Made by a program: the position numbers and the translations under genes. The notes under the pieces are model-generated. The model was not told where the DNA came from. It did not search any database and saw only the letters and a program-made list of their open reading frames with translations. Below are positions 1 through 18,930 of a DNA stretch of 33,101 nucleotides, piece by piece. The first letter of the stretch is position 1. Every line of letters starts with the position of its first letter. The DNA comes from a bacterium (GTDB lineage: Bacteria > UBP4 > UBA4092 > JAOAEQ01): assembly GCA_026416715.1 (NCBI GenBank), contig JAOAEQ010000030.1, positions 1-33,101 on the forward strand. Reading direction: 5' to 3'.

Positions 1-425
1 CAAGTCAGATTTTCGCTCTTTTTAACCGTCGCGGTTTTAACCTCAATAAACCGTGGGGTTATCGTATAGGTTCTGCCCATTTTAACAATCGACCCGGCAA
101 CAATGGTTTCAACCCCGAGGATTTTCCCGATTTCAACCGCGCTTTTCGGGTCAATTAAATCAGTCATCTGCAGTTTCTGCTCTTTTAATACTTTAGCTAA
201 TTGCTGGCGTTCAACCACCTGATATTTTTCCGATTTCGTTAATGCCGATAGTAGAATTTCAGCTACTCCTCGACCGAGAGTAGTATCGATACTTCCGCCG
301 ATAGCTTCAAAATCGAGTACCGCAATTTTCGGGAGTACCGGTTGCGAAGTAGTTTGTCCAACATTTAAAGTAACAAAACCAAAAAGCAAAATAACCAAAC
401 TTGAAATTAATTTCGGTAAGTCCAT
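1..425 (-). CDS. CsgG-family exported protein, 3' end outside window
   Basis: I translated this frame by hand; it is open from an ATG at 425 to the window edge, so the C-terminus is missing (about 141 residues visible). The first 20-25 residues form a hydrophobic signal peptide (MDLPKLISSLVILLFGFVTL). No lipobox cysteine is visible. The mature part begins LPKIAVLDFEAIGG and continues with VVERQQLAKVLKEQ, LIDPKSAVEIGKILGV and IVAGSIVKMG. This is the usual order of the CsgG/FlgO-like fold, in which a periplasmic or outer-membrane-associated domain recognises or assembles envelope components. A Shine-Dalgarno AGGAAAG lies just upstream of the ATG. CsgG relatives range from the curli secretion pore to small unassigned proteins, and no curli genes are in view, so the exact role is open. 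Confidence 0.75.
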   Translation of the reverse strand, partial: MDLPKLISSLVILLFGFVTLNVGQTTSQPVLPKIAVLDFEAIGGSIDTTLGRGVAEILLSALTKSEKYQVVERQQLAKVLKEQKLQMTDLIDPKSAVEIGKILGVETIVAGSIVKMGRTYTITPRFIEVKTATVKKSENLT

Positions 426-746
426 TTTCGCTTTCCTATCTCAAAAAATATAGTATGAGTATAGCACTATCAGGTTCAATTTTGCAAATATTTCATCTAT
501 CTAAAGTAGATGTGTTTCTTATCTATATCAAGCAGTGTTATTGTTCGCGAATAGAATAATCGAGTTTGAATTGACGATACTAAATTGTAATCAAGTTTGT
601 AAATCAAGTCACTACCGCAAAATATTTTAATTCTTTTTCGCATAAATAAGTTGACATATTTCAGAATTATATGATACAAGTTAAGTGAAAAAAACAAAAT
701 CGTAAATCCCACGATTACGTTCGGGGTGAAGGAGGTGAATAACCAA
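426..746. other. Intergenic region between divergent genes
   Basis: About 320 bp of AT-rich DNA between the CsgG-family gene (minus) and the TM2 gene (plus). I see no convincing coding frame. It should carry the promoters of both flanking genes; one candidate is listed separately for the plus strand. Confidence 0.6.
651..678 (+). promoter_or_regulatory. Candidate sigma70-type promoter for the TM2 gene
   Basis: A perfect -35 hexamer TTGACA (651-656) is followed after 16 nt by GATACA (673-678), a weak -10. The TM2-protein start codon lies about 70 bp downstream. The -35 is strong and the -10 poor, so this is only a candidate. Confidence 0.35.
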
Positions 747-1022
747 ATGAGTGGAGAAACGCCGCCATCTTCAGCTCCAGCATCATCGGGTCCGGCTCCC
801 GGACAAAAAGATTGGTTAGTTGCATTGATACTTTCGATATTATTAGGTGGCTGGGGTGTAGACCGATTTTATTTAGGATATATTGGACTCGGTATAGCAA
901 AAATCGCAGTAACGATTTGTACCTGCGGTATCGGCGGGTTAATCTGGTGGATTTATGATATAGTCCAGATTGCAACCATGAAAATGGTCGATGCGAACGG
1001 GCAACCGTTATATAAGAAATAG
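747..1022 (+). CDS. TM2-domain membrane protein
   Basis: A 91-residue protein. The N-terminal 25 residues are rich in Pro, Ser and Ala (cytosolic linker). They are followed by a TM2 domain: hydrophobic segment LVALILSILLGGWGVDRFYL, the GVDRFYLGY turn with its conserved Asp-Arg-Phe-Tyr-Leu-Gly, and a second segment with CTCGIGGLIWWIYDI. A longer frame opens at GTG 726, but the Shine-Dalgarno AAGGAGGTG (729-737) lies inside it and is ideally spaced for ATG 747, so I choose 747. TM2 proteins are two-helix inner-membrane proteins of unknown function. This one heads a stretch of similar small membrane proteins reaching to 4135. Confidence 0.88.
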   Translation: MSGETPPSSAPASSGPAPGQKDWLVALILSILLGGWGVDRFYLGYIGLGIAKIAVTICTCGIGGLIWWIYDIVQIATMKMVDANGQPLYKK

Positions 1023-1103
1023 GGTAAAGTAAAAGGATATAGTTTGCGAGGGGAATAGTTCTCAAACATATTCGGGCTATTCCCCGATTTACTTAATAGG
1101 GTA

Positions 1104-1520
1104 ATGAGGTTAATCCAAGTTCAACCTGTTAATGACCGAACTCAAAGTTGGACGATATTCGCCATATTGACCGTGGTGATGGTAGTAGCATATTTCTGGC
1201 ATCCGAATGACCAAGGAATAGTCTTATGTTATTTCCGTTATTTAACCGGATTACCCTGTGCGGGTTGCGGGTTAACCCGGTCATTAAGTGCGTTCGCTAA
1301 AGGACAGTTCCTAACTTCATTTCAATACCATCCGTTTGGTCCGCTGGTTTTCTTAATTGGTATTGGCTTATGGCTTCGTGCAATAGTAGAATTATTCAAT
1401 CAAAAAACGGTTACGATAGTACTTTCCGAAAAAACTAAACGACGATTGATTCCGCTGTTTATCATTTTTATCATTTCATTCTGGGCGTATCGAATTATTG
1501 ATACTTTATCACATAGATAG
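1104..1520 (+). CDS. DUF2752 membrane protein
   Basis: A 138-residue protein with about three membrane segments (residues roughly 17-33, 73-93 and 111-130). The signature is CYFRYLTGLPCAGCGLTRSL, the CPxCGxTR-type motif of DUF2752, followed by an aromatic/His patch (FQYHPFGPLVFL). The function of the family is unknown; the paired cysteines could bind metal or form a disulfide. It lies 81 bp after the TM2 gene on the same strand and its stop is only 14 bp from the end of the convergent DUF2085 gene. No clear Shine-Dalgarno precedes ATG 1104. Confidence 0.85.
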   Translation: MRLIQVQPVNDRTQSWTIFAILTVVMVVAYFWHPNDQGIVLCYFRYLTGLPCAGCGLTRSLSAFAKGQFLTSFQYHPFGPLVFLIGIGLWLRAIVELFNQKTVTIVLSEKTKRRLIPLFIIFIISFWAYRIIDTLSHR

Positions 1521-1534
1521 ATATACACAACCTT

Positions 1535-2026
1535 TCATTTTCTTACCTGTTGGTTAATAAAACAGCTTAAAAGCGTTAATCCAGTACCGAAACCAGCTAA
1601 ACCGCCAGTAGTTACCCGCACCCAGTTGTTGCCGGGATACCACCCGAGAAATTGCAGCAGGCAGTCGAAACTAAACGGGATAAGTAAAATGAGAAAATAA
1701 CGTAGCGGGAAGTTGTTGAGCCAGGTTCGCCAAAGCGGAAACGATATCGCTACTAACCAGAACGCAAGATAAAACCCGCTACATCTCGCGCATAATCCCC
1801 AAGGGTGGCCGAAAAAGGAAAAACTACGTTCTGGTAATTGATGACAGCAAAGCCTACCAAGCGCATAGAGCGGTTGTGATATAAAGGAAAGATTGAACAC
1901 AGCAAAAAGTGGAGCGCTAAGGATAATTACCGCAAGGATAGTTAATACAATCGAGATAAGCAGCGGTAACCACGGAATTAATGGACGTAAGATTCGTTCA
2001 GTTTGTTGCCAGAATGTATTTCTCAC
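1535..2026 (-). CDS. DUF2085 membrane protein
   Basis: A 163-residue polytopic membrane protein (about four helices) starting at GTG 2026. It carries the DUF2085 signature: CCHQLPERSFSFFGHPWGLC, immediately followed by ARCSGFYLAFW. The conserved Cys-His, Glu-Arg-Ser and CxRCxGxY elements resemble a metal or heme ligand set, but no biochemical role is established for the family. It converges on the DUF2752 gene, another Cys-motif membrane protein. No obvious Shine-Dalgarno is present, so the exact start is less certain than the family call. Confidence 0.82.
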   Translation of the reverse strand: MRNTFWQQTERILRPLIPWLPLLISIVLTILAVIILSAPLFAVFNLSFISQPLYALGRLCCHQLPERSFSFFGHPWGLCARCSGFYLAFWLVAISFPLWRTWLNNFPLRYFLILLIPFSFDCLLQFLGWYPGNNWVRVTTGGLAGFGTGLTLLSCFINQQVRK

Positions 2027-2167
2027 TGCAACGATACGAGATGAATAGCCCCAGGCTTGAGCTCGAGACTATATAGTGGATACAAAATCTTGGGGTTTTA
2101 CCCAGCATCACCTGATTCAGCGAAGGTTGATATCCACAAAAGATATTGACTTATGGTAAATTAGGTA

Positions 2168-2581
2168 TTAACCTTGTTTTTTTGCTTGGTCCATCACCAT
2201 CTTACCGGAGATAACTCCGCAGATAATATTTTGGACTGGAATAATGAGATACGCGAATGACCCTAATCCACAGGTGCATATCGAGAACATAAATAATAGA
2301 ATACATTCTACTATCACAATAAGAATATATCCAACGAGAAACATGATGCCTTTATTGGTTTCGCCGATATAAATCCAGCCGATACCGAGGAAACCGAATA
2401 ATGCCGGGAGTAGTTCGAGTAACATCGCTATCGTTGGGTCACGTTTCGGTGCCGGTGCCGGAGCAGCTTGTGGAGGCGGTGAAGCGGTTGGTTGGCTAGT
2501 CGGCGGCTCGACTTTGGTTCCGCAATTCGGGCAGAACTGCGCGCTACTATCAACCTGAGTTCCACATGATGGACAAAACAC
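2168..2581 (-). CDS. Zinc-ribbon TM2-like membrane protein
   Basis: A 137-residue protein. The N-terminus is a zinc ribbon with two CxxC pairs (FCPSCGTQ and FCPNCGTK). A Pro/Ala-rich linker of about 30 residues follows, then three membrane segments with a TM2-like turn (GIGWIYIGETNKG) and a CTCG-containing helix. The frame is open from ATG 2611, but the Shine-Dalgarno GGAAAGGAGA (complement of 2589-2598) lies inside that extension and is well spaced for GTG 2581, giving the N-terminus MFCPSCGT. The function is unknown. The zinc ribbon would be cytoplasmic. Confidence 0.8.
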   Translation of the reverse strand: MFCPSCGTQVDSSAQFCPNCGTKVEPPTSQPTASPPPQAAPAPAPKRDPTIAMLLELLPALFGFLGIGWIYIGETNKGIMFLVGYILIVIVECILLFMFSICTCGLGSFAYLIIPVQNIICGVISGKMVMDQAKKQG

Positions 2582-2680
2582 AGATGAATCTCCTTTCCGT
2601 AAAATAATCATTTATTATTTATTATTTAAAAGCCCATTGTATAGTGAGTTCTTCCAGAACCCTGAGTTGAACTATGTACC

Positions 2681-2998
2681 TCAGGTTCCGCCACTAAATA
2701 ATGCCATTCCCCCGAAAAATACCAGGTATAAGAATCCTATAATAACGCTAATAATAAGAAATATTGTGCCGATAATTCCCATAATCATTCCCGCGAGCGC
2801 AAACCCTTTACCTGCAGGAGAAGATAATCCGGCTTGAATTCGCTTTAATTCACCGGAACCGATAATCCACGCCGCAATTCCTAATGGAGTGCAGCAAGCG
2901 ATACTTAGTATACCCAGGACTAAAGCGGTGGTTGCTTCCGAACTCGCTTTATCCGATTGAACTGGAGAACTGAATTGTGGTTGAGGGGAAACGTTCAT
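2681..2998 (-). CDS. DUF4190 small membrane protein
   Basis: A 105-residue protein: a polar N-terminus of about 20 residues, then ATTALVLGILSIACC and a second hydrophobic segment (GFALAGMIMGIIGTIFLIIS). The TALVLGILS...GIGS.GELKRI.AG...GKGFALAGMIMGI arrangement is typical of DUF4190, a two-helix family of unknown function. An AGGAAAGGAT Shine-Dalgarno precedes ATG 2998. It lies between the zinc-ribbon TM2-like gene and the B-box-like gene, all on the minus strand. Confidence 0.85.
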   Translation of the reverse strand: MNVSPQPQFSSPVQSDKASSEATTALVLGILSIACCTPLGIAAWIIGSGELKRIQAGLSSPAGKGFALAGMIMGIIGTIFLIISVIIGFLYLVFFGGMALFSGGT

Positions 2999-3028
2999 AT
3001 TGTTATCATATCCTTTCCTAACAATTTT

Positions 3029-4135
3029 TTAGCGCAATTGCGCTAGATTGGTTAAATCTATCTGATTGGCATATCCATATAAAACTGTAGTATCAGAGAT
3101 ATTCTCACCTTTGATTTCAACGACATACCGTCGGTCAACCTCAATCGCTAATTCTGCAGTTCGCGTAGCGTATTCCATTTTTTCTATCGCTGGGTATCCA
3201 AAGGTTGGTAGGGGCACCAATTTCAAATATCCATCTGCATTCGAATAGAGTGACGGACGATGGAATTTCCGATACATTCGCGGATTCCGGCCATAATCAG
3301 AAATGGTGATGATAATTTTACTTCTCTCACGTGGATTAAGGTATTCTCGTTCTGCGCGGGTATAGAGATAATTTTCCTGTTCGAAATTTCCGGAATTAGT
3401 TCGGCTAATTCGCCAGCCGGAAATTGGTTTCGGGAGAAATGGTTCTAATTTCGTATATTCAATCGGCTGAACCGGTTTCGGTGGCGGGATGATTCCTGAA
3501 GGACGATTGACTGGTTCCTGCGAAGCCGGTAGTTCAGAAGCAGGCGGGGTTGAATTTGGTTCAGCGGAACTCGGTTCGGTTTGTGATATATCAGGTGATT
3601 CTGCCGGTTGCGGTTTTTCAGCTTCTGCTGGTTCCGTTGCGGATTCTCCTTCACCGGATGTACTCTCTTCAAGTGTTTCATCTGCCGTTGTATCTTCACC
3701 GAGAGATGATTCCGAGTCCGATTTTGCGATTTGCTGTTCAACTGCCGGTTTGAGTTTCGGCACGAAATATTTCCACGCGAAATAAAGTGCGCCAATCGCT
3801 AAAGCCGTGAAAACGAGAAATAATATGATGCCAATAATAGCCCATTTCAAACAACCGGATTTCTTTTTATCGGTCGGTGCTGAAGTCGGTGCGGTTGATT
3901 GCGATACAGGTGACGGTATAACCGGAGTCTGCGGCGGGGTCGCAAAGGGCGGTTCACTAGTTGATGGAGAAGATTCTGCTGGTGCAGATATTGCAGAAGC
4001 AGCTTGGATTTTTTCTGCGCAGGGTAAACAATAATTTTTTCCATCGATTACGGTTTTACACTCTGTACAGAAAAAATTCTGGCAACTGATACACATTGCC
4101 ACCGCTTCCCGGTCAATATGATTTCGACATTGCAT
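3029..4135 (-). CDS. B-box-like zinc-finger membrane protein
   Basis: A 368-residue protein. Residues 1-40 hold a Cys/His cluster (CRNHIDREAVAMCISCQNFF, then CTECK, YCLPC) matching the B-box-type zinc finger seen in many bacterial membrane proteins. A Ser/Pro/Thr linker follows, then one transmembrane helix at about 97-118. Next is a long low-complexity Glu/Ser/Pro/Thr spacer (about 130-225) and a compact C-terminal domain of about 140 residues containing PISGWRISRTNSGNF and ERSKIIITISDYG. The topology should be zinc finger inside and C-terminal domain outside. Shine-Dalgarno AGAAAGGTGG supports ATG 4135. I do not recognise the C-terminal domain. Confidence 0.75.
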   Translation of the reverse strand: MQCRNHIDREAVAMCISCQNFFCTECKTVIDGKNYCLPCAEKIQAASAISAPAESSPSTSEPPFATPPQTPVIPSPVSQSTAPTSAPTDKKKSGCLKWAIIGIILFLVFTALAIGALYFAWKYFVPKLKPAVEQQIAKSDSESSLGEDTTADETLEESTSGEGESATEPAEAEKPQPAESPDISQTEPSSAEPNSTPPASELPASQEPVNRPSGIIPPPKPVQPIEYTKLEPFLPKPISGWRISRTNSGNFEQENYLYTRAEREYLNPRERSKIIITISDYGRNPRMYRKFHRPSLYSNADGYLKLVPLPTFGYPAIEKMEYATRTAELAIEVDRRYVVEIKGENISDTTVLYGYANQIDLTNLAQLR

Positions 4136-4285
4136 AGAAAAACCACCTTTCTGAATTGTAGAATTAGTAAGGATAATAGCATATCAAGTCAAAATATTCA
4201 ATGTAAAATTTTCAATTATCAGTTTAAAATGGAAAACGATGTAGTTTGCGGATAGGAAATTAATAATGGTACAATTATTGATACG

Positions 4286-5020
4286 ATGGAGAATCAATTG
4301 GAATCATTCCAAAGTTGGGTATCAGAAAAACTTGGGTTTACCTTATCCGCTAAACAGATTGACCAATTCCGAAAATATCTCGAACTATTACAAGAATGGA
4401 ATCAGCAGGTTAATCTGGTCGCTGATGCGGCTGCGGAAACCGTAATTCAACGGCATTTTCTGGACTCATTAACCTGTCTGCAAAGTGGGATTATTGAAGA
4501 TTCAATTACTCTACTTGATATCGGTGCTGGAGCTGGATTTCCAGGAATCCCATTAAAAATTGTTATTCCACAAATACGACTAACCTTGATTGAATCAATT
4601 CAAAAGAAGTGTCGGTTTCTTGATGAAGCGGTTAATACACTTGAATTAGCGCAAACGGATATCCTCTGCGACCGAGCGGAAAAACTCGCGCGACTCACTC
4701 AGTATCGGGAACAATATAAGGTAGTCGTAACTCGTGCATTAGCGCAATTACCGGTCGCCGTTGAATTAGCGTTGCCCTTTGTTCAATTACAAGGAACTTA
4801 TCTTGCCATGCTGGGTAGCGATGCAGATGAACAGATAGCTAAATCGAGAATAGCTATCTCATTATGTGGCGGGATGATTGAACAACTAATTCCAATAGAT
4901 ATTCCGAATTCGGATAGACAACGATATCTGGTTCTGATTAAGAAATCGGTACATACTTCGCAACAATATCCACGTCGCGCTGGTATCCCGCAAAAACGAC
5001 CGCTGGTTATTTCTAGCTAA
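4286..5020 (+). CDS. rsmG: 16S rRNA (guanine-527-N7)-methyltransferase RsmG
   Basis: A 244-residue protein of normal length for RsmG/GidB. It uses S-adenosylmethionine to methylate G527 of 16S rRNA. The SAM-binding loop LLDIGAGAGFPGIPLKI is textbook RsmG, and VVTRALAQLPVAVELALPFV matches the later conserved block. The N-terminal helix set (LELLQEWNQQVNLV) and the RHFLDSL motif are also present. ATG 4286 lies close behind a possible -10 (TACAAT, 4270-4275), so the mRNA leader may be very short. It appears to be transcribed alone, with an intrinsic terminator downstream. Confidence 0.96.
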   Translation: MENQLESFQSWVSEKLGFTLSAKQIDQFRKYLELLQEWNQQVNLVADAAAETVIQRHFLDSLTCLQSGIIEDSITLLDIGAGAGFPGIPLKIVIPQIRLTLIESIQKKCRFLDEAVNTLELAQTDILCDRAEKLARLTQYREQYKVVVTRALAQLPVAVELALPFVQLQGTYLAMLGSDADEQIAKSRIAISLCGGMIEQLIPIDIPNSDRQRYLVLIKKSVHTSQQYPRRAGIPQKRPLVISS

Positions 5021-5110
5021 TACCTATTCAGATACCTATTTCAGAGCAAGTTCTCCATTGGATAGTTTGCTCTATAATCCTAAATAAATCAATAGAGAAC
5101 ATTTTATCAT

Positions 5111-5142
5111 AATCAGGTTCACTGATGGTAAACCTGATTTTT
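5111..5142 (+). terminator. Intrinsic terminator after rsmG
   Basis: A perfect 9-bp stem, AATCAGGTT (5111-5119) with AACCTGATT (5131-5139), loop of 11 nt, running into TTTTT (5138-5142). It lies 90 bp after the rsmG stop and 100 bp before the LolC/E start, so it should separate the two transcription units. Confidence 0.75.
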
Positions 5143-5243
5143 CTGTTATATCACAATGCATCAATTTGTGGTTATTTCTCTTATCGTGCTACAATTAACT
5201 TTATTTTAAATTTAATATTAACTTGGAGAACCTGTTGGTATCT

Positions 5244-6458
5244 ATGCGCTACGAATGGTTTATCAGTCTCCGTTATCTTAAAGCGAAACGAAAACAAACG
5301 TTTATTTCGATTATCACGCTTATTTCCGTTGCTGGGGTAACTCTTGGCGTGATGGCGTTAATCATCGTTATTGCGGTAATGAACGGATTCGACCGTGATT
5401 TACGGACTAAAATTCTCGGCACGAAATCGCATATCGTCATTATGTCCGCTGATGAAACCGAATTACCGCAATATCGAGAGGTGCTCGCGCAGGTTAGAAA
5501 AGAACCTGGAGTGGTTTCTGCGGCACCGTTTATCAGTATCCAGGGGATGCTCCAGTCAGATATAACTATGCAAGGGGTTGTGTTGATGGGGATTGACCCG
5601 AAATATGAAGCGCAAGTAACTGATATCGGTAAAAATATTATCCAAGGGCAATTACCGCGGTTAGGAACCAATGATATTGTTATCGGGAAGGAATTAGCGT
5701 TCCATTTGGGGGTAGGGCTGGGGAGTCAGGTAATCGTTTTTTCGAAAGTAGTTCAGACCGCATTGGGGTTGGTTCCGAGAACTAGCATCTGTAAAGTATG
5801 TGGTATATTCGATTCCGGAATGTATGAATATGATTCCGGATTAGCGTATATTCCGCTGGATTTAGCCCAAAAGTTTTTCGATATGGCACCAGATAAAGTT
5901 ACCGGAATAGAAGTTAAAGTGAACGATATCTATCAAGCGAAAAATATCGCTACGCGAATGACCCGAAATTTAAGCAACCGATATCTAATCCGGAGTTGGG
6001 ATGTGATGAATCGCGAACTTTTCTCCGCGTTAAAACTCGAAAAAACGGTTATGTTTATTATTCTTTCGCTAATTGTGGTTGTAGCTGCATTTAATATTAT
6101 CAGCACTTTGATTATGGTGGTTATGGAGAAAAATAAGGATATCGCAATTCTAAAAACGATGGGCGCAACCCAACGCAGTATCTCGTTTATCTTTTTACTT
6201 GAAGGACTGGTTATCGGAATCATTGGAACCATACTCGGTGCACTCGGCGGTATAACCACCTGTCTCGCATTAGACAAATATAAGTTTATTTCATTACCGC
6301 AGGATATTTATTATATTTCAACCTTACCAGTCGAAATCGAACCGGCAACGGTTATTTTGATTATGGTCAGTGCGATTATGATATGTTTAGTTGCAGCGGT
6401 ATATCCGGCTTGGCAAGCGGGTCGGTTAGACCCGATTGAAGCGATTCGATATGAGTAA
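5244..6458 (+). CDS. LolC/LolE-type lipoprotein-releasing permease
   Basis: A permease of about 404 residues. In the Lol system the permease and LolD extract mature lipoproteins from the inner membrane and hand them to LolA. The N-terminal RYEWFISLRYLKAKRKQTFI and first helix (ISVAGVTLGVMALIIVIAVM) are typical. A large periplasmic MacB-like domain follows (about 45-260), then three C-terminal helices with KNKDIAILKTMGATQ before the second and DPIEAIRYE at the end. The frame opens at TTG 5223; GGAG at 5225-5228 would also suit TTG 5235, but family N-termini favour ATG 5244. Only one permease gene is present, so it probably acts as a homodimer or with a partner elsewhere. Confidence 0.9.
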   Translation: MRYEWFISLRYLKAKRKQTFISIITLISVAGVTLGVMALIIVIAVMNGFDRDLRTKILGTKSHIVIMSADETELPQYREVLAQVRKEPGVVSAAPFISIQGMLQSDITMQGVVLMGIDPKYEAQVTDIGKNIIQGQLPRLGTNDIVIGKELAFHLGVGLGSQVIVFSKVVQTALGLVPRTSICKVCGIFDSGMYEYDSGLAYIPLDLAQKFFDMAPDKVTGIEVKVNDIYQAKNIATRMTRNLSNRYLIRSWDVMNRELFSALKLEKTVMFIILSLIVVVAAFNIISTLIMVVMEKNKDIAILKTMGATQRSISFIFLLEGLVIGIIGTILGALGGITTCLALDKYKFISLPQDIYYISTLPVEIEPATVILIMVSAIMICLVAAVYPAWQAGRLDPIEAIRYE

Positions 6459-6536
6459 TGCTTAATGTTCACTGGTCAATTTAAAATGTTACTGTTGCAT
6501 CGTTAATTGTACATTTTATTTGTTTCATTAAATTCT

Positions 6537-7220
6537 ATGTCTTTACTAGAAGCAATTAACCTGCATAAACGGTATCGGTCAGGTCATATCTGGATTGAGG
6601 TGTTGAAAGGGATACATCTCGCAATTGAATCTGGAGAAATTATTTCGATTGTTGGCCCATCCGGTGCAGGGAAAAGTACCTTATTACATCTGCTCGGATT
6701 TCTTGACCGACCGACTGCTGGTGAAGTTCGATTGGATGGACAAGAAGTATTATCCTTATCCGATTCCGCAATTGCAAGTATCCGAAATAAACGAATCGGG
6801 TTTCTCTTTCAATTTCATCATTTACTACCCGAATTTACCGCTGCAGAAAATATTATGCTCCCGCAACTAATCGCTGGAAGAAATAAGAAACAAGCGAAAG
6901 AAAAAGCTACTTACCTATTAGAACAGGTCGGATTACCGGATCGAGGACATCATAAACCAGGCGAACTTTCCGGAGGTGAGCAGCAGCGGGTAGCGTTAGC
7001 GCGAGCGCTCGTTAACGACCCGGCAGTAGTTCTGGCGGATGAACCGACTGGGAATCTGGACGGTGCTACCGGAGCGAAGATGCTGGAATTGCTCTGGCAT
7101 TTGAACGAACAGAATAAACAAACATTTGTCTTAGTTACCCATGATGAAACGATAGCACATCAAGCGCATCGGTTAATTCGTCTGGTTGAAGGACGGGTTG
7201 TTGAAGAGAAAAAATTATGA
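6537..7220 (+). CDS. lolD: LolD-type ABC transporter ATP-binding protein
   Basis: The ATPase partner of the preceding permease, 227 residues. It shows Walker [10 protein letters not shown], the Q-loop region [19 protein letters not shown], signature [15 protein letters not shown], Walker [14 protein letters not shown] and the switch His in VLVTHDET. This motif set is that of the LolD/MacB/FtsE class. The frame is open from TTG 6507, but the family N-terminus ([13 protein letters not shown]) fits ATG 6537. There is no clear Shine-Dalgarno. It follows the permease by 78 bp on the same strand, so the two are likely co-transcribed. Confidence 0.93.
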
Positions 7221-7323
7221 TATTATATTTATCGAGAAGAAACTAAAAAACTGAAGCACGAAAAAACGGAAATTCTGGGATTCTATTGTAAGTAAATTTT
7301 TAGAGAGAGGGGAAGTGTTCCGA

Positions 7324-8226
7324 GTGCAGAAACAAAAACCAAAGAAGCAGCAATATATATATTTAAATGGAAAATTGGTGCCGAGAGAAGAAGCGAAAGT
7401 ATCTGTTTACGACCATGGGTTGCTCTATGGCGATGGTGTGTTTGAAGGGATTCGGATTTATAACGGTCGCGTATTCAAGTTTGATGATCATCTTAAACGG
7501 TTATATCGTTCAGCGCGAGCGATTATGCTCGAAATCCCGCTTTCCTATGACCAGTTGAAGGAAGCGACGTTGATGACTATTCGCGCGAATAAACTGCGGG
7601 ATGGATATATTCGGTTGGTGGTAACTCGGGGTGAAGGAGATTTAGGATTAGCGCCGTGGAAATGTCCGAAACCATTTATTTTTATTATTGTGGATACCAT
7701 CGGATTATATCCGGAAGAATATTATACCAAAGGATTAGAGATTATCACGGTTCCAACCCGGCGGCATATTCCGGAAGGATTGAATCCGAACATTAAATCA
7801 TTGAATTATTTAAATAACATCTTAGCGAAAATAGAAGCAAAACATGCTGGCGTACAGGAAGCGGTGATGTTGAATTCTGAGGGATATGTAGCGGAATGTA
7901 CCGGAGATAATATTTTTATTGTTAAAGATGGAGTATTAATGACTCCGCCAGCTTATATGGGAGCGTTAGATGGAATTACAAAAGCAACGGTAATCGAATT
8001 AGCAACCAAGATGAACATCGAAACGAAAGAATATATATTGACTCGATTCGATTTATTTAATGCGGATGAATGTTTTCTGACTGGCACCGCTGCAGAAGTT
8101 GTCCCCGTGGTTAAAATCGACCAGCGGATTATCGGTGATGGTAGTCCCGGTCCTTTAACACTAAAACTGATTAGAGCATTTAGAAGATTAACCCAGCGGG
8201 AAGGGGTGCCGGTATATACAAAATAA
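7324..8226 (+). CDS. ilvE: Branched-chain amino acid aminotransferase
   Basis: A class IV (D-amino-acid aminotransferase fold) PLP enzyme of about 300 residues that interconverts branched-chain 2-oxo acids and Val, Leu or Ile with glutamate. Visible landmarks are YLNGKLVPREEAKVSVYDHG, GDGVFEGIR, the PLP lysine in NIKSLNYLNNILAK (about Lys158), the glutamate in GYVAECTGDNIF, and LTGTAAEVVPV near the end, typical of IlvE rather than pabC or D-alanine transaminase. GTG 7315 and GTG 7324 are both possible starts; the GAGAGAGG stretch just upstream fits 7324 slightly better. leuC and leuD of the same pathway lie about 23 kb away. Confidence 0.9.
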   Translation: MQKQKPKKQQYIYLNGKLVPREEAKVSVYDHGLLYGDGVFEGIRIYNGRVFKFDDHLKRLYRSARAIMLEIPLSYDQLKEATLMTIRANKLRDGYIRLVVTRGEGDLGLAPWKCPKPFIFIIVDTIGLYPEEYYTKGLEIITVPTRRHIPEGLNPNIKSLNYLNNILAKIEAKHAGVQEAVMLNSEGYVAECTGDNIFIVKDGVLMTPPAYMGALDGITKATVIELATKMNIETKEYILTRFDLFNADECFLTGTAAEVVPVVKIDQRIIGDGSPGPLTLKLIRAFRRLTQREGVPVYTK

Positions 8227-8354
8227 ATGCCAAATCCACAATCCAAATGTCAAATATACCGATACGAGCATAAACAGATTAAAGAATTAAAGGCAAAATT
8301 AGCAAGTAACTATTTTCAAGGTTAAAATGTAAATGGAATATTGAACTTTGAATT
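8227..8354. repeat. Word-repeat intergenic segment after ilvE
   Basis: Directly after the ilvE stop comes a chain of near-identical words (CCAAATCC, ACAATCC, AAATGTCAAAT), and just before the next start codon another (TTGAACTTTGAATT). These low-complexity words resemble those at 15049-15081, 25996-26027 and 29425-29460. Confidence 0.45.
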
Positions 8355-8867
8355 ATGATTTTGTGTGATATATGTAAAAAAGCACAGGCGACATTCCACC
8401 GAACGAATATAGTCAATAATCAGATAACTGAAATCCATCTCTGCCAGAGTTGTGCGGAAAAAGAAGGTATGGAAATTGCCGGATTAGTTAAATTGAATAT
8501 CGAAGATGCGTTAGCGAGTTTGTTGAATTATATTGCTGCAGAAGATAAAAACGGTGGTCAGATTGGTAAAGAAAAAAATCTCGTTTGCCCGCGATGCCAG
8601 TTAAGTTTCACGAAATTCAGCGAACTCGGTCGGCTCGGTTGTCCGGAATGTTATACGACGTTTGCTGCAGAACTTGAACCGCTTTTGCGTCGGTTACATG
8701 GTAGCTGTGACCATCAGGGGAAAATGCCACCGCACGCGAATCGGCTGGTCGAATTGAATAAAGAACTCCATGAATTACGTCGGCAGTTACAACTGGCATT
8801 AAAAGAAGAAGATTTTGAACGCGCGGCACAACTTCGGGATGCAATTAAAAAGGCAGAGATGATTTAA
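8355..8867 (+). CDS. McsA-like zinc/UVR-domain protein
   Basis: A 170-residue protein with two CxxC pairs at the N-terminus (CDICKKAQ, CQSCAEKEGM), two more in the middle (VCPRCQLSF, GCPECYTTF) and a UVR helix pair at the C-terminus (LQLALKEEDFERAAQLRDAI). This is the layout of McsA, which in Firmicutes activates the protein-arginine kinase McsB and modulates CtsR/ClpC. Neither mcsB, ctsR nor clpC is next to it, so the partner is unknown. The UVR motif is shared with UvrB/UvrC. Its stop codon overlaps that of the convergent flavoprotein gene. Confidence 0.85.
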   Translation: MILCDICKKAQATFHRTNIVNNQITEIHLCQSCAEKEGMEIAGLVKLNIEDALASLLNYIAAEDKNGGQIGKEKNLVCPRCQLSFTKFSELGRLGCPECYTTFAAELEPLLRRLHGSCDHQGKMPPHANRLVELNKELHELRRQLQLALKEEDFERAAQLRDAIKKAEMI

Positions 8868-10129
8868 CACTGCTTCGTAGCCGCACTTTTCCCAGCAAGG
8901 TAACCGGTACTAAATGCCATCTGGAGATTATATCCACCGGATTTCCCGGTTACATCAATTATTTCTCCTGCAAAATATAATCCGTTAATTCGCTTCGACT
9001 CCATCGTTTTTGAATTGATTTCTTCAATAGCAATTCCACCAGCAGTAACCATAGCTTCTTCCAGCGGACGGAGTCGCGTTATCGTAATTGGGAACTGCTT
9101 GATATATTTGATTATGTTGATTCGGTCAGGTTTCGTTATTTGGGATACCGATTTCACGGGCGGAACTTTTGCTCGTTCTAAAATAACTGCGATGATTCTC
9201 TGCGGTAATAGAGCGGATAATGCGGTCTGGATCTGCTGTTTTGGATGTTCGAGAAATAACGAACGAAACCGATTGTCTAGACTGGATACTGTTTCACCAG
9301 GACATAAGTCTAAATTCAGCGATACTAACCCCTGATGTAGGAGAGAACCGAGGAGTTCGCTATTATCCAGTATAATCGGACCGGAGAGGCCAAAATGCGT
9401 GAAAATGATATCTCCCTGAACCTGCAGTTTTTTAGGGTTCGTTTGGGTAGTCAATCGAATGTTATTAAGCGAGATACCTTTCAATTGTTGAATCCAAGGT
9501 TCAGCGGTTTCTACAGGGACTAATGCGGGACGCAACGGGTTAACTTGAATGTTAAGTTGTTGTGCTATTGTAAATCCATCTCCGGTTGACCCGGTTGCTG
9601 TATATGATTTCCCGCCTGTACATAGAATTACTGCTGATGCTGGATAAAAACGATGATCAACCGTTGTAACGCCAATAACCTTATTCGATTGTTTTATAAC
9701 TTTGGTTACTCGAGAGTTATATACAATCTGCACATGATTTTCAATCAGATAGCGATGTAATGCTTGAACAACCTCCGCGGCGTTATCCGATTTCGGGAAT
9801 ACCCGGCCATCAGGCTCGGTCTTCGTCTTAACTCCAAGCGATTCAAAGAACCGGATGGTATCCCAGTTCGAAAAAGCAGTGATTGCAGAATATAAGAATT
9901 TCCCAGTTTTTCCGTATCCAAGGATGAACGAGCTCATAGCTCGTTCATCCCTGGTCAAGTTACACCGTCCGTGTCCGGTTAATCCGAGTTTCAGACCCAA
10001 TCGGCTATTTCTTTCTAGCAGAATAACTTTAGCGCCGAATTTCGCTGCGGTTCCAGCGGCGAGCATCCCTGCCGGACCGCCACCAATAACCAGTATTGGT
10101 TTAACAATGTTGACATGCGAAAACGTCAT
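8864..10129 (-). CDS. BaiN/HI0933-family FAD-dependent oxidoreductase
   Basis: A 421-residue flavoprotein. The N-terminal FAD-binding Rossmann motif is VIGGGPAGMLAAGTAAKFGA, followed by the family block KLGLTGHGRCNLTRD. Later landmarks are ILCTGGKSYTATGSTGDGF, GDIIFTHFGLSGPIIL and the C-terminal MVTAGGIAIEEI...GLYFAGEIIDVTGKSGGYN. This matches the HI0933-like family (aminoacetone oxidase or BaiN annotations); the true substrate is generally unknown. Residues 61-69 are encoded by a perfect 13-bp inverted repeat (see 9918-9954). The 3' end overlaps the convergent McsA-like gene by 4 bp. Confidence 0.9.
   Translation of the reverse strand: MTFSHVNIVKPILVIGGGPAGMLAAGTAAKFGAKVILLERNSRLGLKLGLTGHGRCNLTRDERAMSSFILGYGKTGKFLYSAITAFSNWDTIRFFESLGVKTKTEPDGRVFPKSDNAAEVVQALHRYLIENHVQIVYNSRVTKVIKQSNKVIGVTTVDHRFYPASAVILCTGGKSYTATGSTGDGFTIAQQLNIQVNPLRPALVPVETAEPWIQQLKGISLNNIRLTTQTNPKKLQVQGDIIFTHFGLSGPIILDNSELLGSLLHQGLVSLNLDLCPGETVSSLDNRFRSLFLEHPKQQIQTALSALLPQRIIAVILERAKVPPVKSVSQITKPDRINIIKYIKQFPITITRLRPLEEAMVTAGGIAIEEINSKTMESKRINGLYFAGEIIDVTGKSGGYNLQMAFSTGYLAGKSAATKQC
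9918..9954. repeat. Near-perfect palindrome inside the flavoprotein gene
   Basis: GGATGAACGAGCT (9922-9934) and AGCTCGTTCATCC (9938-9950) are perfect inverted arms of 13 bp around a 3-nt CAT. Beyond one A.C mismatch (9921/9951), three further pairs extend it to 9918-9954. It stays in frame in the host gene. Confidence 0.85.
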
Positions 10130-10149
10130 GGTGTTAGGAGTGGATTAGA

Positions 10150-10923
10150 TTATAAGGAACTGCTCATCATTTCCGATACCGTAACGAATTTATAGCCGTG
10201 CGATTTAAGTTCATGAATTATCTCCGGTAGCGCTGTTACTATTTGATCATGGTCATCATGACAGAGGATGATAGAACCGTTTCGAACTGAGTTTAAAATA
10301 TTCTTTTTAATGGCAGCGATTCCTGGTCTCGACCAATCCCGAGAATCGACCGACCAGAGTACTACATCGAATTTCCGTAACGCAAGTTCTGCTAATGACC
10401 GGCCATTGAATACCCCCCATGGCGGACGAAACAAAACCGTATTTGTTCCAGTTAATTTCTGAACAATATCCCGCGTTCGCTCAAGTTCTTGTTTGATTTT
10501 TATAGACGGTACTTTGGTTAACATAACATGGGAATAAGTATGATTACCAATTTCATGTCCAGCGAGATGGATTTGTTTAACTAATTCTGGTTGCTGCTCC
10601 GCATGGTGCCCGATTAAAAAAAATGTTGCCCGTACTTGTTCCTGTTCTAATATTTTCAACACCTTGGGTGTATATTTCGGATTCGGACCATCATCAAACG
10701 TCAATGCAATATATTTATTCTGATTATTTCCTGCCCAGATTACACGCGTATTGATTCCTTTTAATAAGGCTTCGTATAAACGATAATCAATGATACTATC
10801 GAAACTCAACGGTGGTGGATACATTGCTTTCTGAGCAAAATTAGTATCTTTACTTAAGGATAAAGAAAAACTCAATAAGATAAATAAACAAGCAGGGATC
10901 TTGATTTTATTACCCAATTTCAT
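10150..10923 (-). CDS. Exported polysaccharide deacetylase (NodB domain)
   Basis: About 257 residues. The N-terminal signal peptide has a hydrophobic core (ACLFILLSFSLSLS). The NodB homology domain follows with motif 1 IALTFDDGPNP (catalytic and metal Asp), motif 2 EIGNHTYSHVML (two metal His), motif 3 LFRPPWGVF, motif 4 DVVLWSVDSRDW and a C-terminal ILCHDDHD in place of the commoner LLHD. These enzymes N- or O-deacetylate chitin-, peptidoglycan- or acetyl-sugar-type polymers outside the cytoplasm. Two ATG codons are adjacent (10926, 10923); AAAGGGAGA is better spaced for the second. The PIG-L-type gene ends 27 bp upstream on the same strand. Confidence 0.92.
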   Translation of the reverse strand: MKLGNKIKIPACLFILLSFSLSLSKDTNFAQKAMYPPPLSFDSIIDYRLYEALLKGINTRVIWAGNNQNKYIALTFDDGPNPKYTPKVLKILEQEQVRATFFLIGHHAEQQPELVKQIHLAGHEIGNHTYSHVMLTKVPSIKIKQELERTRDIVQKLTGTNTVLFRPPWGVFNGRSLAELALRKFDVVLWSVDSRDWSRPGIAAIKKNILNSVRNGSIILCHDDHDQIVTALPEIIHELKSHGYKFVTVSEMMSSSL

Positions 10924-10953
10924 CATTATCTCCCTTTCGTTAAATTCATTTGA

Positions 10954-12327
10954 CTATTTAATTTTAATAATTCTCCAAGCTGCCCAGTCTAATGGTACTT
11001 CTGTTAAATAAGTCCTAGCACTGGTTAATATTTGCTGGGGATCGCCAAGTATATGTAACGGAATATACATTGTAATTTCCTGCGGAGTTCGGTTGATTTT
11101 AACTATATTAAGAGGTAGTAAAGTATTTTGGTCGAAAATTTGATGCCGTAATAACCCAAAATTAATATGCAGTTTCGGCATCGAAGCGAAATTTCGGTCG
11201 TGTCGATATCCAAAAACATATACGGATACGCTAACCGTTTTCCCGATAGAACGAGAAAGTTTAATTGTTAACACAAGATTATTTTGCGTATCGATATGGA
11301 TTAGCCGCTGTTCAACACCAATATAATCTAACTGCTCAATTTCAGTAAGCTGTTCGGGTATATCTAATGGTTGAGAGTTGCCCTTGGAAACCATAGTCGG
11401 AACTGAATTTGGGTTTAAAAACAGCGTCGGAAAATCACCAAATACTTCATTATTCCGAACAAACGAAATCAAAAGTGAGCGATGAGATTCATATTGTGTT
11501 TTATGTTTGTTTAATGCAGCAAGTTTGTGGAATATCTCGTCAGGTTGCAAATGATATTGATGCCAGACGATCTCCTGCTGCAATACGTATGGCATAACCA
11601 GCGGTTGGTTCGGTATGTATTTTCTTGGTTTAGGCCAATTCTTATAATGAATTAGATAAGGATAAAGTGACGGCTGGATTTCGTCGTGTAAATTCCATAA
11701 CGCAATTTGCGTGAATAGATATAATGCTTGATGGTCTGGATTAAAATCAGCTGGATGCGAAAGGAATATCTTAGTCGGTTTATATTCACGAAGAATGGCG
11801 GTGATATCTTTGAGTATCTCATCTCCTTTATAGAGTGCTCCCGGACGAAATGCGTTCGGATACGGTACGGCGGTAACTCGGGTAAACATACTTTCCGCAA
11901 CTGGACTTTTGTTCCAATGGGATAACCAGATACGCAGGGTTCGAAAATCGGGATATCCTAAAAAAGTTATCTGATTCGCGGGGATACCTAGCATTGCATC
12001 CGCTTGAATTGCTTCCTCATGTCGAATTAATCCCATTTGTTTAACCGCTTTCGGTAACAATACCGGATGTTTTCGATAGACGAAAAATGACCATTCATTG
12101 TTATCGCCATAGGTTAAAAAGACAACGCGGACGGGAACCCGTAATTTTACTGCAGCTTGGATTATTCCAGCACACCCAAGTACTTCATCATCCGGATGCG
12201 GAGCAAGAATTAGGATTCGGTCGGAGTGGGAAAGCGTCAAATTCGTCTGAGCGCATAATCTTGTAATGAAGGTTATGCAAAATAACACTAAGCTAAGAGG
12301 ACTCAAAGAAAATCGTAGATTGACCAT
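10954..12327 (-). CDS. Exported PIG-L/LmbE-family deacetylase
   Basis: A 457-residue protein with a signal peptide (hydrophobic LSLVLFCITFITRLCAQ) and a PIG-L fold: ILILAPHPDDEVLGCAGII near residue 35 supplies the zinc-binding His-Pro-Asp-Asp, and IFLSHPADFNPDHQALYLF supplies the second His motif. Family members remove N-acetyl groups from GlcNAc-type substrates. Residues after about 270 form an extra domain I do not recognise, roughly doubling the usual length. It lies directly upstream of the NodB-type deacetylase, so both may act on the same exported glycan. Confidence 0.88.
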   Translation of the reverse strand: MVNLRFSLSPLSLVLFCITFITRLCAQTNLTLSHSDRILILAPHPDDEVLGCAGIIQAAVKLRVPVRVVFLTYGDNNEWSFFVYRKHPVLLPKAVKQMGLIRHEEAIQADAMLGIPANQITFLGYPDFRTLRIWLSHWNKSPVAESMFTRVTAVPYPNAFRPGALYKGDEILKDITAILREYKPTKIFLSHPADFNPDHQALYLFTQIALWNLHDEIQPSLYPYLIHYKNWPKPRKYIPNQPLVMPYVLQQEIVWHQYHLQPDEIFHKLAALNKHKTQYESHRSLLISFVRNNEVFGDFPTLFLNPNSVPTMVSKGNSQPLDIPEQLTEIEQLDYIGVEQRLIHIDTQNNLVLTIKLSRSIGKTVSVSVYVFGYRHDRNFASMPKLHINFGLLRHQIFDQNTLLPLNIVKINRTPQEITMYIPLHILGDPQQILTSARTYLTEVPLDWAAWRIIKIK

Positions 12328-12395
12328 AATTCCATTTGTTTTAAAACAGTGTAATAATCAATATTTAGGTTTTCATCGCGGCACCTCAGTGTTCA

Positions 12396-13049
12396 TTATA
12401 ACTTTTTACCAAAAATATAATAGGGTAAATCGTAGCCGAAATGATAGTGTAAACAAGTCAATTTAGTTGAATATAATAATTCAAATCCCATTTTCTGAAA
12501 AAAAAGTTTCGCTGATTCTGAAACGGTTCCAAAATGAACTCCAGGAATATTGTTTGATTTTAAATACGTTATGTAATATCCAAGTAGTTTACTACCGATA
12601 TTGCGTCCCCGATATTGTTTATCCAAATTGATATGCAACGTAGCCGGATATTCTTTAGAATAATCGGGAATACGAAATTCGCCTTTCATTAAGCTAAGGA
12701 AGATATGCCATAGTAAGCGGACAGTATTCCCGTGAAAAATTGTTCCGGTTTTTATTCCACGAACGATAACGTTCGGGAGAATCCTTTTTAGATACCCAAT
12801 GCGTACTTTCCGGATGTCTGTTGACCCAATAAGATATCCGACAACTCGCGGGTTGTCCATGGCGACAAAACACGATTCCGGTTCATAATCAGTAAAATAA
12901 CGGGTTAAGATGTCGGCAAGAATATCTTCATTATCAATAAATAGATTATGCGGTTCCTCCAGAAACGCAGTCATACAACTGATTCTGCGAACCGACTCGC
13001 GATCGATTGGTTGATAGTTACGGATGACAATAGTATTCAGTTCCATCAT
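12396..13049 (-). CDS. GNAT-family N-acetyltransferase
   Basis: A 217-residue protein. The acetyl-CoA-binding motif A is LHINLDKQYRGRNIGSKLLG, with the R/QxxGxG/A-type pyrophosphate loop, followed by GVHFGTVSESAKLFFQKMGF, the usual motif B. The N-terminal part (ESCFVAMDNPRVVGYLIGST) matches the central beta strands. The acceptor substrate cannot be told. A short GTAGG precedes the tandem ATG codons. It lies 69 bp upstream of the PIG-L-type gene and could be co-transcribed with it. Confidence 0.85.
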   Translation of the reverse strand: MMELNTIVIRNYQPIDRESVRRISCMTAFLEEPHNLFIDNEDILADILTRYFTDYEPESCFVAMDNPRVVGYLIGSTDIRKVRIGYLKRILPNVIVRGIKTGTIFHGNTVRLLWHIFLSLMKGEFRIPDYSKEYPATLHINLDKQYRGRNIGSKLLGYYITYLKSNNIPGVHFGTVSESAKLFFQKMGFELLYSTKLTCLHYHFGYDLPYYIFGKKL

Positions 13050-13240
13050 AACCTACAATTTCTTCAACAATTAGCAAACAACAGAAAACATGCTGATACG
13101 ATATAAAAATTTTAACATTGCGTATCTGATTTGAACAAGATAATGGTTCGGTAGGATATCATATTTGAAATTAGGTTTACCTCTTGCAGAATTAGTTCCT
13201 TTGATGTTAAGTTGTATGTATTTGAATGAAAGGGTTTTAT

Positions 13241-13732
13241 ATGGGCTATATTGATAGAAATCTGGTTGCAGGTGAGCACGTGGTATTTCGCACTAAACTG
13301 CATTGGATTATCTATACAAAATCAATCATTTTATTGATACTCGCGATTCTTGTATATTTATTAGGTATGTTTTATCCAATAGTTGAGGATATACGCAGAT
13401 TCTATTATATCATTGCTAGCGTTTTAATTTTTCTTTCGGTAATTTTGTTTATTCCAGCGTGGTTGAAATATATATCATCCGAATTCGGGGTAACTACTAG
13501 CCGGGTGTTGATTAAAGTCGGATTTATCAGCCGGAACTCGTTTGAGCTATTGATATCTAAAATCGAAGGAATTGGCGTTGACCAGAGTATTCTTGGCAGG
13601 ATTCTTAACTACGGCACAATTATTGTTAGCGGAACCGGTGGAACCAAAGAATCGTTCGCATTAATAGCTAAACCGCTAGAGTTTCGGAAAAAAGTACAAG
13701 AACAGATTATTTCTCTACAAACACTGAAATAA
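13241..13732 (+). CDS. Bacterial PH-domain (YdbS/YdbT-like) membrane protein
   Basis: A 163-residue protein. After a short N-terminal stretch (RNLVAGEHVVFRTKLHW) come two transmembrane helices (about 27-45 and 57-79) and then a bacterial PH domain (FGVTTSRVLIKVGFISRN, ISKIEGIGVDQSILGRILNY, GTIIVSGTGGTKESF). The family is often annotated bPH2 or DUF304; its role is unknown. The frame opens at ATG 13226, but GAAAGGG (13228-13234) lies inside it and is spaced for ATG 13241. Confidence 0.85.
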   Translation: MGYIDRNLVAGEHVVFRTKLHWIIYTKSIILLILAILVYLLGMFYPIVEDIRRFYYIIASVLIFLSVILFIPAWLKYISSEFGVTTSRVLIKVGFISRNSFELLISKIEGIGVDQSILGRILNYGTIIVSGTGGTKESFALIAKPLEFRKKVQEQIISLQTLK

Positions 13733-14204
13733 AACGACTCCGGAAAAAGACATAAACTTTTTATTCTAGTCGGTTAAATTTGATAACGGTAAGGATGAAA
13801 ATGATTATGCGGAATTAAAATTTCCGCATACGCGACTATTAAATTTGGGATTATACTTGTTTGTCAAACCCAGTAAAAAACATAAATGGGATTTCTTCTC
13901 TTAACATTGGTTTTTCCCCAAAATATTCGGAGTTAAACGCATTAAACTCCCATCAACCATTCAAGGACGAGAAGTGGTTTGCTGGACTTCTGAAGAATCT
14001 ATCGTCAGACAACTTATGGCAAACAATAGGATTACTGCATTATTGTTTCAGTTAGATGAACTGGTTCAAAATAATAACGGCGAATTTCTCGTTAACGATA
14101 ATGGGATACCCCTGCGATTTCCGCTCTTTTTCTAATCGGTATGCTCATTTATCTCGGGTGCGATATGATTAAAGAGTTAAAATAACAGCTTCGCTCAGAA
14201 GATA
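13733..14204. other. Long intergenic region with a hairpin and a short ORF
   Basis: About 470 bp between the convergent PH-domain and valS genes. It holds a 9-bp perfect hairpin (TATGCGGAA at 13806-13814 with TTCCGCATA at 13822-13830, 7-nt loop) that lacks a T-run, and a short protein-like frame ending at 14135. Otherwise I see no gene. Confidence 0.55.
13974..14135 (+). pseudogene. Short ORF or gene remnant
   Basis: A frame of 53 codons from GTG 13974 to TAA 14133-14135, with AAGGA about 6 nt before the GTG. The same frame is open back to 13905 but without a normal start codon upstream. The translation (EESIVRQLMANN, LLFQLDELVQNNNGEFLV) has the hydrophobic/charged pattern of a real protein rather than random sequence. 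It could be a genuine small protein or the 3' remnant of a decayed gene. I recognise no family. Confidence 0.3.
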
Positions 14205-16862: not shown

Positions 16863-16909
16863 AATCGATAGCAAAAAAATCCCATTGCTTTTGAAAAATT
16901 TAATACTAC

Positions 16910-16939
16910 ATTATACTATAAACTCCCGCCGACTGTTAG
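16910..16939 (-). promoter_or_regulatory. Candidate valS promoter
   Basis: On the minus strand a perfect -10 TATAAT (complement of 16910-16915) stands 18 nt from CTAACA (complement of 16934-16939), a four-of-six -35. Transcription would begin about 40 nt before the valS start. Confidence 0.4.
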
Positions 16940-16965
16940 TCAGGATATTAGTTTGATATCTGGTA

Positions 16966-16995
16966 TTGACGTAGGTTGATAGCCTACGCTACTAT
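16966..16995 (+). promoter_or_regulatory. Candidate promoter containing a palindrome
   Basis: TTGACG (16966-16971) and TACTAT (16990-16995) are 18 nt apart, upstream of the flavoprotein start at 17039. The inverted repeat CGTAGGTT/AGCCTACG (16970-16977 with 16981-16988, one G.T pair, 3-nt loop) fills the spacer. The palindrome may be a dispersed element rather than an operator. Confidence 0.4.
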
Positions 16996-17038
16996 ATTTT
17001 GCACGAAATATCTATTCCAAATACACCGGAGTTATCGA

Positions 17039-17593
17039 ATGAAAAAAATATTAGGTATCGTGGGTAGTCCACGAAAGAACGGGAACACCGATATTTTAGT
17101 TTCCAAAATCATCGAAGGCGCAAAGAGTCAAGCAGCGAAAACCGATACGGTTTATCTCGCTGATTTGGATATCCGAGAATGCGATGGATGCCACGTTTGC
17201 TGGAAAGGGAATCCGTGTAGTAAACAGGATGATATGAACGCGATATATTCAAAAATTATTGATAGCGATATTATTATTTTCGGTACGCCGGTATATTGGT
17301 ATGGACCGACTGCATTGATGAAAATGTTTATCGACCGGTTCGTGTATTTCAACTGCCCTGAAAATAGAAAGAAGATTGTAAGGAAACAAGCGATTATTGC
17401 GGTTCCGTTTGAAGAAGATAATCCTGCTACTGCATCGCTAGTAGAAACCTTTTTCGAGAAATGTTTCGATTATCTTCAGATAGAACTAATCGCAAAACTT
17501 ATTGTAGGTGGGGTTACCCGAAAAGGCGAAATCCTTAAGGAAAAAGACCGAATTGCGGAAGCGTATGAACTTGGGAAAAAAATTAGTGAGTAA
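17039..17593 (+). CDS. Iron-sulfur flavoprotein / NADPH-dependent FMN reductase family
   Basis: A 184-residue flavodoxin-like protein. The FMN phosphate loop is GSPRKNGNTDIL near the N-terminus. ECDGCHVCWKGNPCSKQDDM follows, a CX2CX2CX5C cluster resembling the compact [4Fe-4S] motif of archaeal-type iron-sulfur flavoproteins. FGTPVYWYGPTALMKMFIDR is the usual FMN-ring-contacting block. Members shuttle electrons from NAD(P)H or ferredoxin; the acceptor is unknown. The frame is open from 16976, but CCGGAG just upstream and the family N-terminus (MKKILGIVGSPR) support ATG 17039. Confidence 0.9.
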   Translation: MKKILGIVGSPRKNGNTDILVSKIIEGAKSQAAKTDTVYLADLDIRECDGCHVCWKGNPCSKQDDMNAIYSKIIDSDIIIFGTPVYWYGPTALMKMFIDRFVYFNCPENRKKIVRKQAIIAVPFEEDNPATASLVETFFEKCFDYLQIELIAKLIVGGVTRKGEILKEKDRIAEAYELGKKISE

Positions 17594-17732
17594 CGACGAT
17601 TCACGCTATTGAGATAAGTAAGCTTATCATAGTAAGATAATCAAACAAATATTATGGAAATAATCGCCGTGATTCATCTCCGAAATTTGCATTTTTAAAT
17701 AAAATGGTTTTGTATATCTATCGTATATCTTT

Positions 17733-18326: not shown

Positions 18327-18354
18327 GATTGATCTGTGTCTAGCTGCGGCTAGA
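18290..18354. repeat. Palindromic repeat across the kinase stop codon
   Basis: Nested inverted repeats: CAGATCA (18307-18313) with TGATCTG (18330-18336), an outer GCCGCA near 18292 with TGCGGC (18345-18350), and TCTAGC/GCTAGA (18339-18344, 18349-18354). They span the kinase stop (18324-18326) and end 7 bp before the next start codon. Confidence 0.65.
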
Positions 18355-18360
18355 AATGTT

Positions 18361-18879: not shown

Positions 18880-18884
18880 TACCC

Positions 18885-18925
18885 CAAATGCTCAATATAA
18901 ATTTATGTGTTGAGAGTTGCATTTG
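18885..18925. terminator. Candidate hairpin between convergent genes
   Basis: CAAATGC (18885-18891) pairs with GCATTTG (18919-18925), with a further TCAA/TTGA inside. It sits in the 51-bp gap between the convergent dCMP deaminase and GT-C-like genes, where a bidirectional terminator is expected. No strong T-run is visible. Confidence 0.35.
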
Positions 18926-18930
18926 TATAT

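Follow-up and report, generated by a model that had tools for sequence, protein, structure and literature searches.

The region described here occupies positions 747–4135 of a bacterial DNA stretch of 33,101 nt (the window in what follows), and it holds an island of six genes. A sequence-only reading had placed TM2, DUF2752, DUF2085, zinc-ribbon TM2-like, DUF4190 and B-box-like genes side by side here, with no enzyme among them; all six open reading frames lie where it had put them, Pfam assigns five of them and finds no enzyme domain in any of the six proteins, and the Cys motifs that it had seen in four of the six are present. The six genes do not make up a single transcription unit but fall into two convergent groups 14 bp apart: the plus strand carries TM2 and DUF2752, the minus strand the other four. 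On one side the island is flanked by rsmG and a gene for an FtsX/MacB-type permease.

The first plus-strand gene (747–1022) encodes a TM2 protein of 91 amino acids (Pfam PF05154, 2.9e-14; 53.4 bits vs a cut-off of 27.9), with a Pro/Ser/Ala N-terminus and a hairpin of two transmembrane (TM) helices joined by a DRFY loop ('GVDRFYLG'). We prefer the ATG at 747 to the GTG at 726 as its start, since a ribosome-binding site, GGAGGTGA, lies at 731–738. The second gene (1104–1520) encodes a DUF2752 protein of 138 amino acids (PF10825, 1.3e-17; 64 vs 27 bits), with three TM helices and the C...CxxCG core of the family in a C42...C52xxC55-G56-x-T-R loop. Within the 81-bp gap between the two genes, a plus-strand inverted repeat, GGGGAATAG...CTATTCCCC (1050–1085), folds as a 12-bp RNA hairpin (−24.2 kcal/mol, z −3.4), and its arms have no exact copies elsewhere in the window. 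As it has no clear T-run, it is possibly an attenuation or processing element rather than a plain terminator.

The minus-strand genes follow the order B-box, DUF4190, zinc-ribbon protein, DUF2085, spaced by about 30, 69 and 141 bp. The B-box protein (3029–4135, 368 amino acids) consists of a B-box zinc finger, one TM helix, a Pro/Glu/Ser linker and a C-terminal domain of approximately residues 223–368; it has no curated PF00643 match (an ANCHR-like B-box at 0.044 is the best), while an alignment with zf-B_box proteins from elsewhere covers its first ~50 residues, and homologues elsewhere do reach PF00643. The DUF4190 protein (2681–2998, 105 amino acids; PF13828, 2.2e-9), which includes a 'ACCTPLGIAAWIIG' helix, narrowly passes the family cut-off (37.4 vs 35 bits), and the DUF2085 protein (1535–2026, 163 amino acids; PF09858, 8.9e-24) passes with 84.2 vs 25 bits and carries a C-H-Q...CxRC motif. 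The remaining protein (2168–2611, 147 amino acids) joins a zinc ribbon (Zn_Ribbon_1, 1.1e-9) through a Pro/Ala linker to a TM2-like membrane part (TM2, 0.003) that stays below the PF05154 cut-off (18.2 vs 27.9 bits) and is related to TM2 at profile level only (hhalign 91%). CTCG-containing helices, thought at first to occur in several of the proteins, are found in just these two TM2-type proteins ('TICTCGIGG' in TM2, 'SICTCGLGS' in the zinc-ribbon protein), which together with the profile match fits common TM2 ancestry. No convincing relatives were found in the PDB.

To what extent these families belong together can be judged from a set of 192 diverse genomes (~170 families), in which the phylum of the window is represented by two species, the other being G001; linkage was defined as lying within 3 kb, and the window itself was left out of the linkage counts. 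DUF2752 occurs in 39 of these genomes, TM2 in 35, DUF4190 in 30, DUF2085 in 17 and CD225 in 7. DUF2752 is linked to TM2 in 6 of the 13 genomes holding both (0.03 expected; P 2e-13), to DUF4190 in 4 of 14 (0.05 expected; P 7e-8) and to CD225 in 3 of 5 (0.01 expected; P 1e-7), while the control family GtrA, whose members are also small membrane proteins and similarly frequent, is linked to it in none of 13 genomes where the two co-occur. The recurrent linkage in distant phyla that had been put forward as a test thus exists for TM2, DUF2752 and DUF4190, and extends to CD225; it was not found for DUF2085 and the B-box protein. More generally, a small multi-TM gene adjoins 20 of 39 diverse DUF2752 genes but 18 of 143 controls (P 1e-6), and neighbour pairs are always co-directional (49/49). 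In Pfam and NCBIfam, 61 such adjacent small multi-TM proteins match DUF4190 (15), CCC (15), TM2 (10), DUF4234 (6), DUF4870 (5) and CD225 (4), where one protein may match more than one family; about nine of them carry zinc ribbons.

In G001, which belongs to the same class as the source of the window, zinc-ribbon-CD225, DUF2752 and zinc-ribbon-DUF4190 genes form a tight tandem cluster, the TM2 gene is located elsewhere and DUF2085 is absent; in this closest relative DUF2752 and DUF4190 have thus stayed together, while the remaining island is gone. Zinc-ribbon proteins were also seen upstream of DUF2752 in G059, where there are three in tandem, the one closest to DUF2752 being a Pfam Yip1 protein (locus L134, 8354–10796), and in G004, where there is one zinc-ribbon Yip1 protein (L149).

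A second phylum, that of G063, was surveyed in 148 genomes. Both TM2 and DUF2752 occur in 73 of them; in 57 of these 73, spanning 17 families, the two genes adjoin, always on the same strand (57/57). DUF2752 comes first in 51 cases, and TM2 comes first, the order seen in the window, in 6. In sixty regions of 6–12 kb from this phylum, containing 61 DUF2752 genes, the partner is TM2 in 31 cases, a CD225-type protein (CCC or CD225) in 16 and DUF4234 in a few, and TM2 and a CD225-type protein never occur together (P 7e-7). In three genomes (G325, G267 and G286) DUF2752 paralogues differ in their partners, CCC for one and TM2 for another. The residues after the CxxC track the partner: all 14 CCC-paired DUF2752 proteins have CGxQR, while those paired with TM2 mostly have CGxG or CGxT. 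The partner label also clusters strongly on a tree built from 102 DUF2752 proteins, with 22 changes vs 51 in shuffles (10 vs 30 for the TM2 label, 8 vs 19 for the CD225-type label), and the starred branches alone force at least 3 changes for the TM2 label and at least 3 for the CD225 label. Some of these partners are themselves akin, as profile comparison by hhalign gives 97% for DUF4190-CCC, 96% for CCC-CD225 and 89% for DUF4190-CD225, with unrelated pairs below 4%; judged by these profiles, the DUF4190 protein of the window is a distant relative of the IFITM/dispanin proteins. The partners TM2, CD225/CCC/DUF4190 and DUF4234 thus look interchangeable, with DUF2752 subfamilies following the partner type. 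A single hub that exchanges its partners is what a functional pair would be expected to leave behind, though this falls short of proof.

The window, with TM2 and DUF2752 adjacent, co-directional and 81 bp apart, contains such a pair. We suggest that the island probably holds a lineage-specific version of a widespread and apparently undescribed module, in which DUF2752 is the hub for a hairpin membrane protein and which likely serves in organising or monitoring the membrane. Of the undescribed multi-gene system proposed earlier, what is supported is a core inside the island, the DUF2752-hairpin pair; neither DUF2752 nor DUF4190 was mentioned in the literature searched, which left subscription journals mostly outside and is not proof of absence. 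The families of four of the six genes, all but DUF2085 and the B-box gene, adjoin one another in many distant bacteria, so these four probably act together in the cell membrane. As the linkage shows, DUF2752 is inherited beside a small same-strand hairpin protein, which may be TM2, a member of the CD225/CCC/DUF4190 superfamily or DUF4234; at some loci a Tic20-like DUF4870 protein and an M48 metalloprotease join them. In the window this pair is TM2 and DUF2752, with a second TM2-type protein (the zinc-ribbon one) and DUF4190 on the opposite strand. We propose that the hairpin protein and DUF2752 may form a heteromeric membrane complex, in which any zinc ribbons would serve for the docking of other proteins. 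Such a complex would most likely organise or monitor the membrane and the proteins in it, either as to the state of the bilayer or in membrane-protein quality control; the non-enzymatic partners, the M48 peptidases at some loci and the membrane roles of animal CD225 and TM2 proteins are all consistent with this.

In the Cys loop of DUF2752, C42, C52, C55 and G56 are invariant across 37 diverse homologues, and the loop is poor in Lys/Arg (0.07 per residue, compared with 0.20 for the N-terminus and 0.23 for the loop between helices 2 and 3), so that by the positive-inside rule it is probably extracytoplasmic. In a few lineages that retain the TM2 pairing the second Cys of the CxxC is replaced by Glu or Asp. 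A thiol-disulfide switch that is obligatory does not fit this, whereas a site for metal binding or structure does; the loop might then be a metal-bound or structural knob outside the cytoplasm. Given the similar C...CxxC layout we also considered whether DUF2085 and DUF2752 are distant homologues, and rejected this because hhalign shows no profile relation (0.2%).

The Cys-to-Glu/Asp changes in the CxxC of DUF2752 also speak against the proposal that the six genes are one envelope complex or a metal- or redox-sensing system. Six adjoining genes without an enzyme, four of them with Cys motifs, do invite this idea, but the sensing role found no support, and DUF2085 and the B-box protein are unlinked elsewhere, which speaks for a conserved core rather than a six-gene system. 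DUF2085 is unlinked in all ten other genomes where it occurs with TM2, DUF4190, CD225 or DUF2752, has no constant neighbours across genomes, which led us to reject it as part of the system, and is absent from G001, which does have the CD225-DUF2752-DUF4190 cluster. We thus regard a six-part system as very unlikely; what stands of the earlier proposal is the conserved core. In one genome, G007, DUF2085 directly follows rsmG-like and YidC-like genes (L112, 1–1806); rsmG of the window lies ~2 kb from DUF2085.

Homologues of the B-box protein are found on contigs other than those with DUF2752. Its finger is a modular N-terminus that elsewhere fronts RDD, DUF4870-like and DUF4190/GYF_2 proteins, a kindred design. 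Its C-terminal domain (3032–3469, minus strand) belongs to a small family without a Pfam model, whose relatives in G046 and G080 (L157 and L159) are unlinked and, having lipoprotein-like signal sequences, are apparent lipoproteins; a genome scan with the B-box protein gave one weak match. We take DUF2085 and the B-box protein for probable bystanders or local additions, the B-box gene being likely a lineage-specific neighbour.

Two further observations concern the genome of the window. At 8355–8867 the window encodes an McsA-like zinc protein (CDICKKAQATFH..) with UVR-like C-terminal helices, beside which no mcsB, ctsR or clpC was recognised. At L009 (G000:C2, 6161–7000) two tandem small proteins of 'PGLGHIYVGAY' type lie near two NAD-synthase-like genes, and the one at 6650–7000 has a weak TM2 match.

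At six loci in two phylum-level groups, a gene for an M48 metallopeptidase lies one or two genes from DUF2752 on the same strand: TM2-DUF2752-DUF4870-M48 in G063, G302, G207 and G244, and DUF2752-DUF4870-M48 in G311, where the locus lies at the start of a contig; G008, from another phylum, has CD225-DUF2752-M48. A hidden Markov model (HMM) built from four of these M48 proteins found no further M48 genes in these 100 DUF2752 regions. M48 is the only recurrent enzyme seen at DUF2752 loci, which favours membrane-protein quality control, although not directly for the window. A more specific form of the module would be a DUF2752-hairpin pair that regulates or feeds membrane proteolysis, with M48 in the operon at some loci and encoded apart at others. 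Animal TM2D proteins have a role in Notch signalling, at its gamma-secretase step (PMC8714088), and IFITM3 modulates gamma-secretase (PMC7661164); these links, however, concern another protease class and may be unrelated. With M48 at just 6 of ~100 loci, and none found beside the window genes (positions 1–20000), so that the M48-associated form was not seen here, we hold this version to be possible but doubtful. The G008 locus (L116, 5657–10978) resembles an operon and comprises two Ser/Thr kinases (one confirmed by Pfam, the other from the start of its sequence), a zinc-ribbon CD225 protein, DUF2752, the M48 peptidase and an LEA_2 protein, placing kinase signalling beside the module.

The scarcity of M48 and its absence from the first 20 kb of the window also weigh against the broader reading of a DUF2752-hub module, as do several other points. 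About half of the DUF2752 genes in the diverse genomes have no recognised adjacent partner, and DUF2752 was never found fused to one. Resolution of the partner tree is weak (132 columns), the P values ignore common descent, and several local HMMs were built from the same loci, so that the 49/49 strand count and the partner-region and M48 counts rest partly on them, while the Pfam counts do not. In the window, DUF4190 is on the strand opposite DUF2752, contrary to the usual arrangement. Single-sequence structure models were poor (pLDDT 57.6 for DUF2752 and 32.7 for the B-box C-terminal domain).

The partnerless half and the weakly supported tree, along with the fact that the partners come from several unrelated families, would fit a view in which the linkage reflects genome architecture only, with unrelated small membrane genes accumulating and persisting by lineage inertia. 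We consider this unlikely: the GtrA control never links, the 49 pairs are all co-directional with both gene orders represented, the same pairings recur across many phyla, and paralogues within a genome have different partners.

A role of the IFITM-like proteins in anti-phage defence has some appeal, as animal CD225 proteins block the entry of viruses, and IFITMs from mycobacteria restrict influenza virus in human cells (PMC4488726). PADLOC has no match for the core proteins, however; its sole weak match is to the B-box linker region and probably reflects composition, and one plasmid only and no viral contig were found, which makes defence extremely unlikely. A mobile or phage origin was rejected on the same plasmid and viral counts, with PHROGs matches limited to TM2 and zinc-ribbon types and one weak DUF2085 match.

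Among known systems, PSP envelope-stress modules likewise group small membrane proteins that are not enzymes, some of them bearing zinc ribbons (PMC11237479); TM2, CD225, DUF2752, DUF4190 and DUF4870, however, go unmentioned in the main text of that survey, and we therefore rejected PSP as the identity of the module. M48 peptidases (HtpX/Oma1 type, PF01435) are membrane-linked and recurrent beside DUF2752, but the association is a minority one, and the first 20 kb of the window has none.

A signal sequence and an extracellular region set animal TM2D proteins apart from bacterial TM2 proteins, which are short, often carry a zinc ribbon and are paired with DUF2752, a family not known from animals. 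The window TM2 resembles animal TM2D1-3 (PF05154) in its two-TM hairpin and DRF(Y) loop; in the animal proteins the hairpin loop is intracellular (PMC8714088). The CD225/dispanin (IFITM) proteins, PF04505 together with NF040945 ('CCC motif membrane protein'), are like DUF4190 by profile (89–97%), and CD225 itself fills the partner place beside DUF2752 in the class of the window and in other phyla; unlike them, the window protein has no PF04505 match, nor has any other protein of its genome, and its NF040945 match (0.054) is far below the cut-off. The function of bacterial IFITMs has been stated to be unstudied (PMC4488726). Antiviral immunity and the genetics of Alzheimer's disease are fields in which CD225 (IFITM) and TM2 proteins are important; for their bacterial relatives, the conserved, swappable pairing with DUF2752 offers a concrete, testable partner in ordinary bacteria. 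One might even speculate, as a rather improbable extension, that DUF2752 is the common bacterial partner of CD225/IFITM and TM2 hairpins whose animal relatives are tied to intramembrane proteolysis and membrane traffic, and thus the missing partner that would explain these hairpins as parts of an ancient device for membrane-state or protease control.

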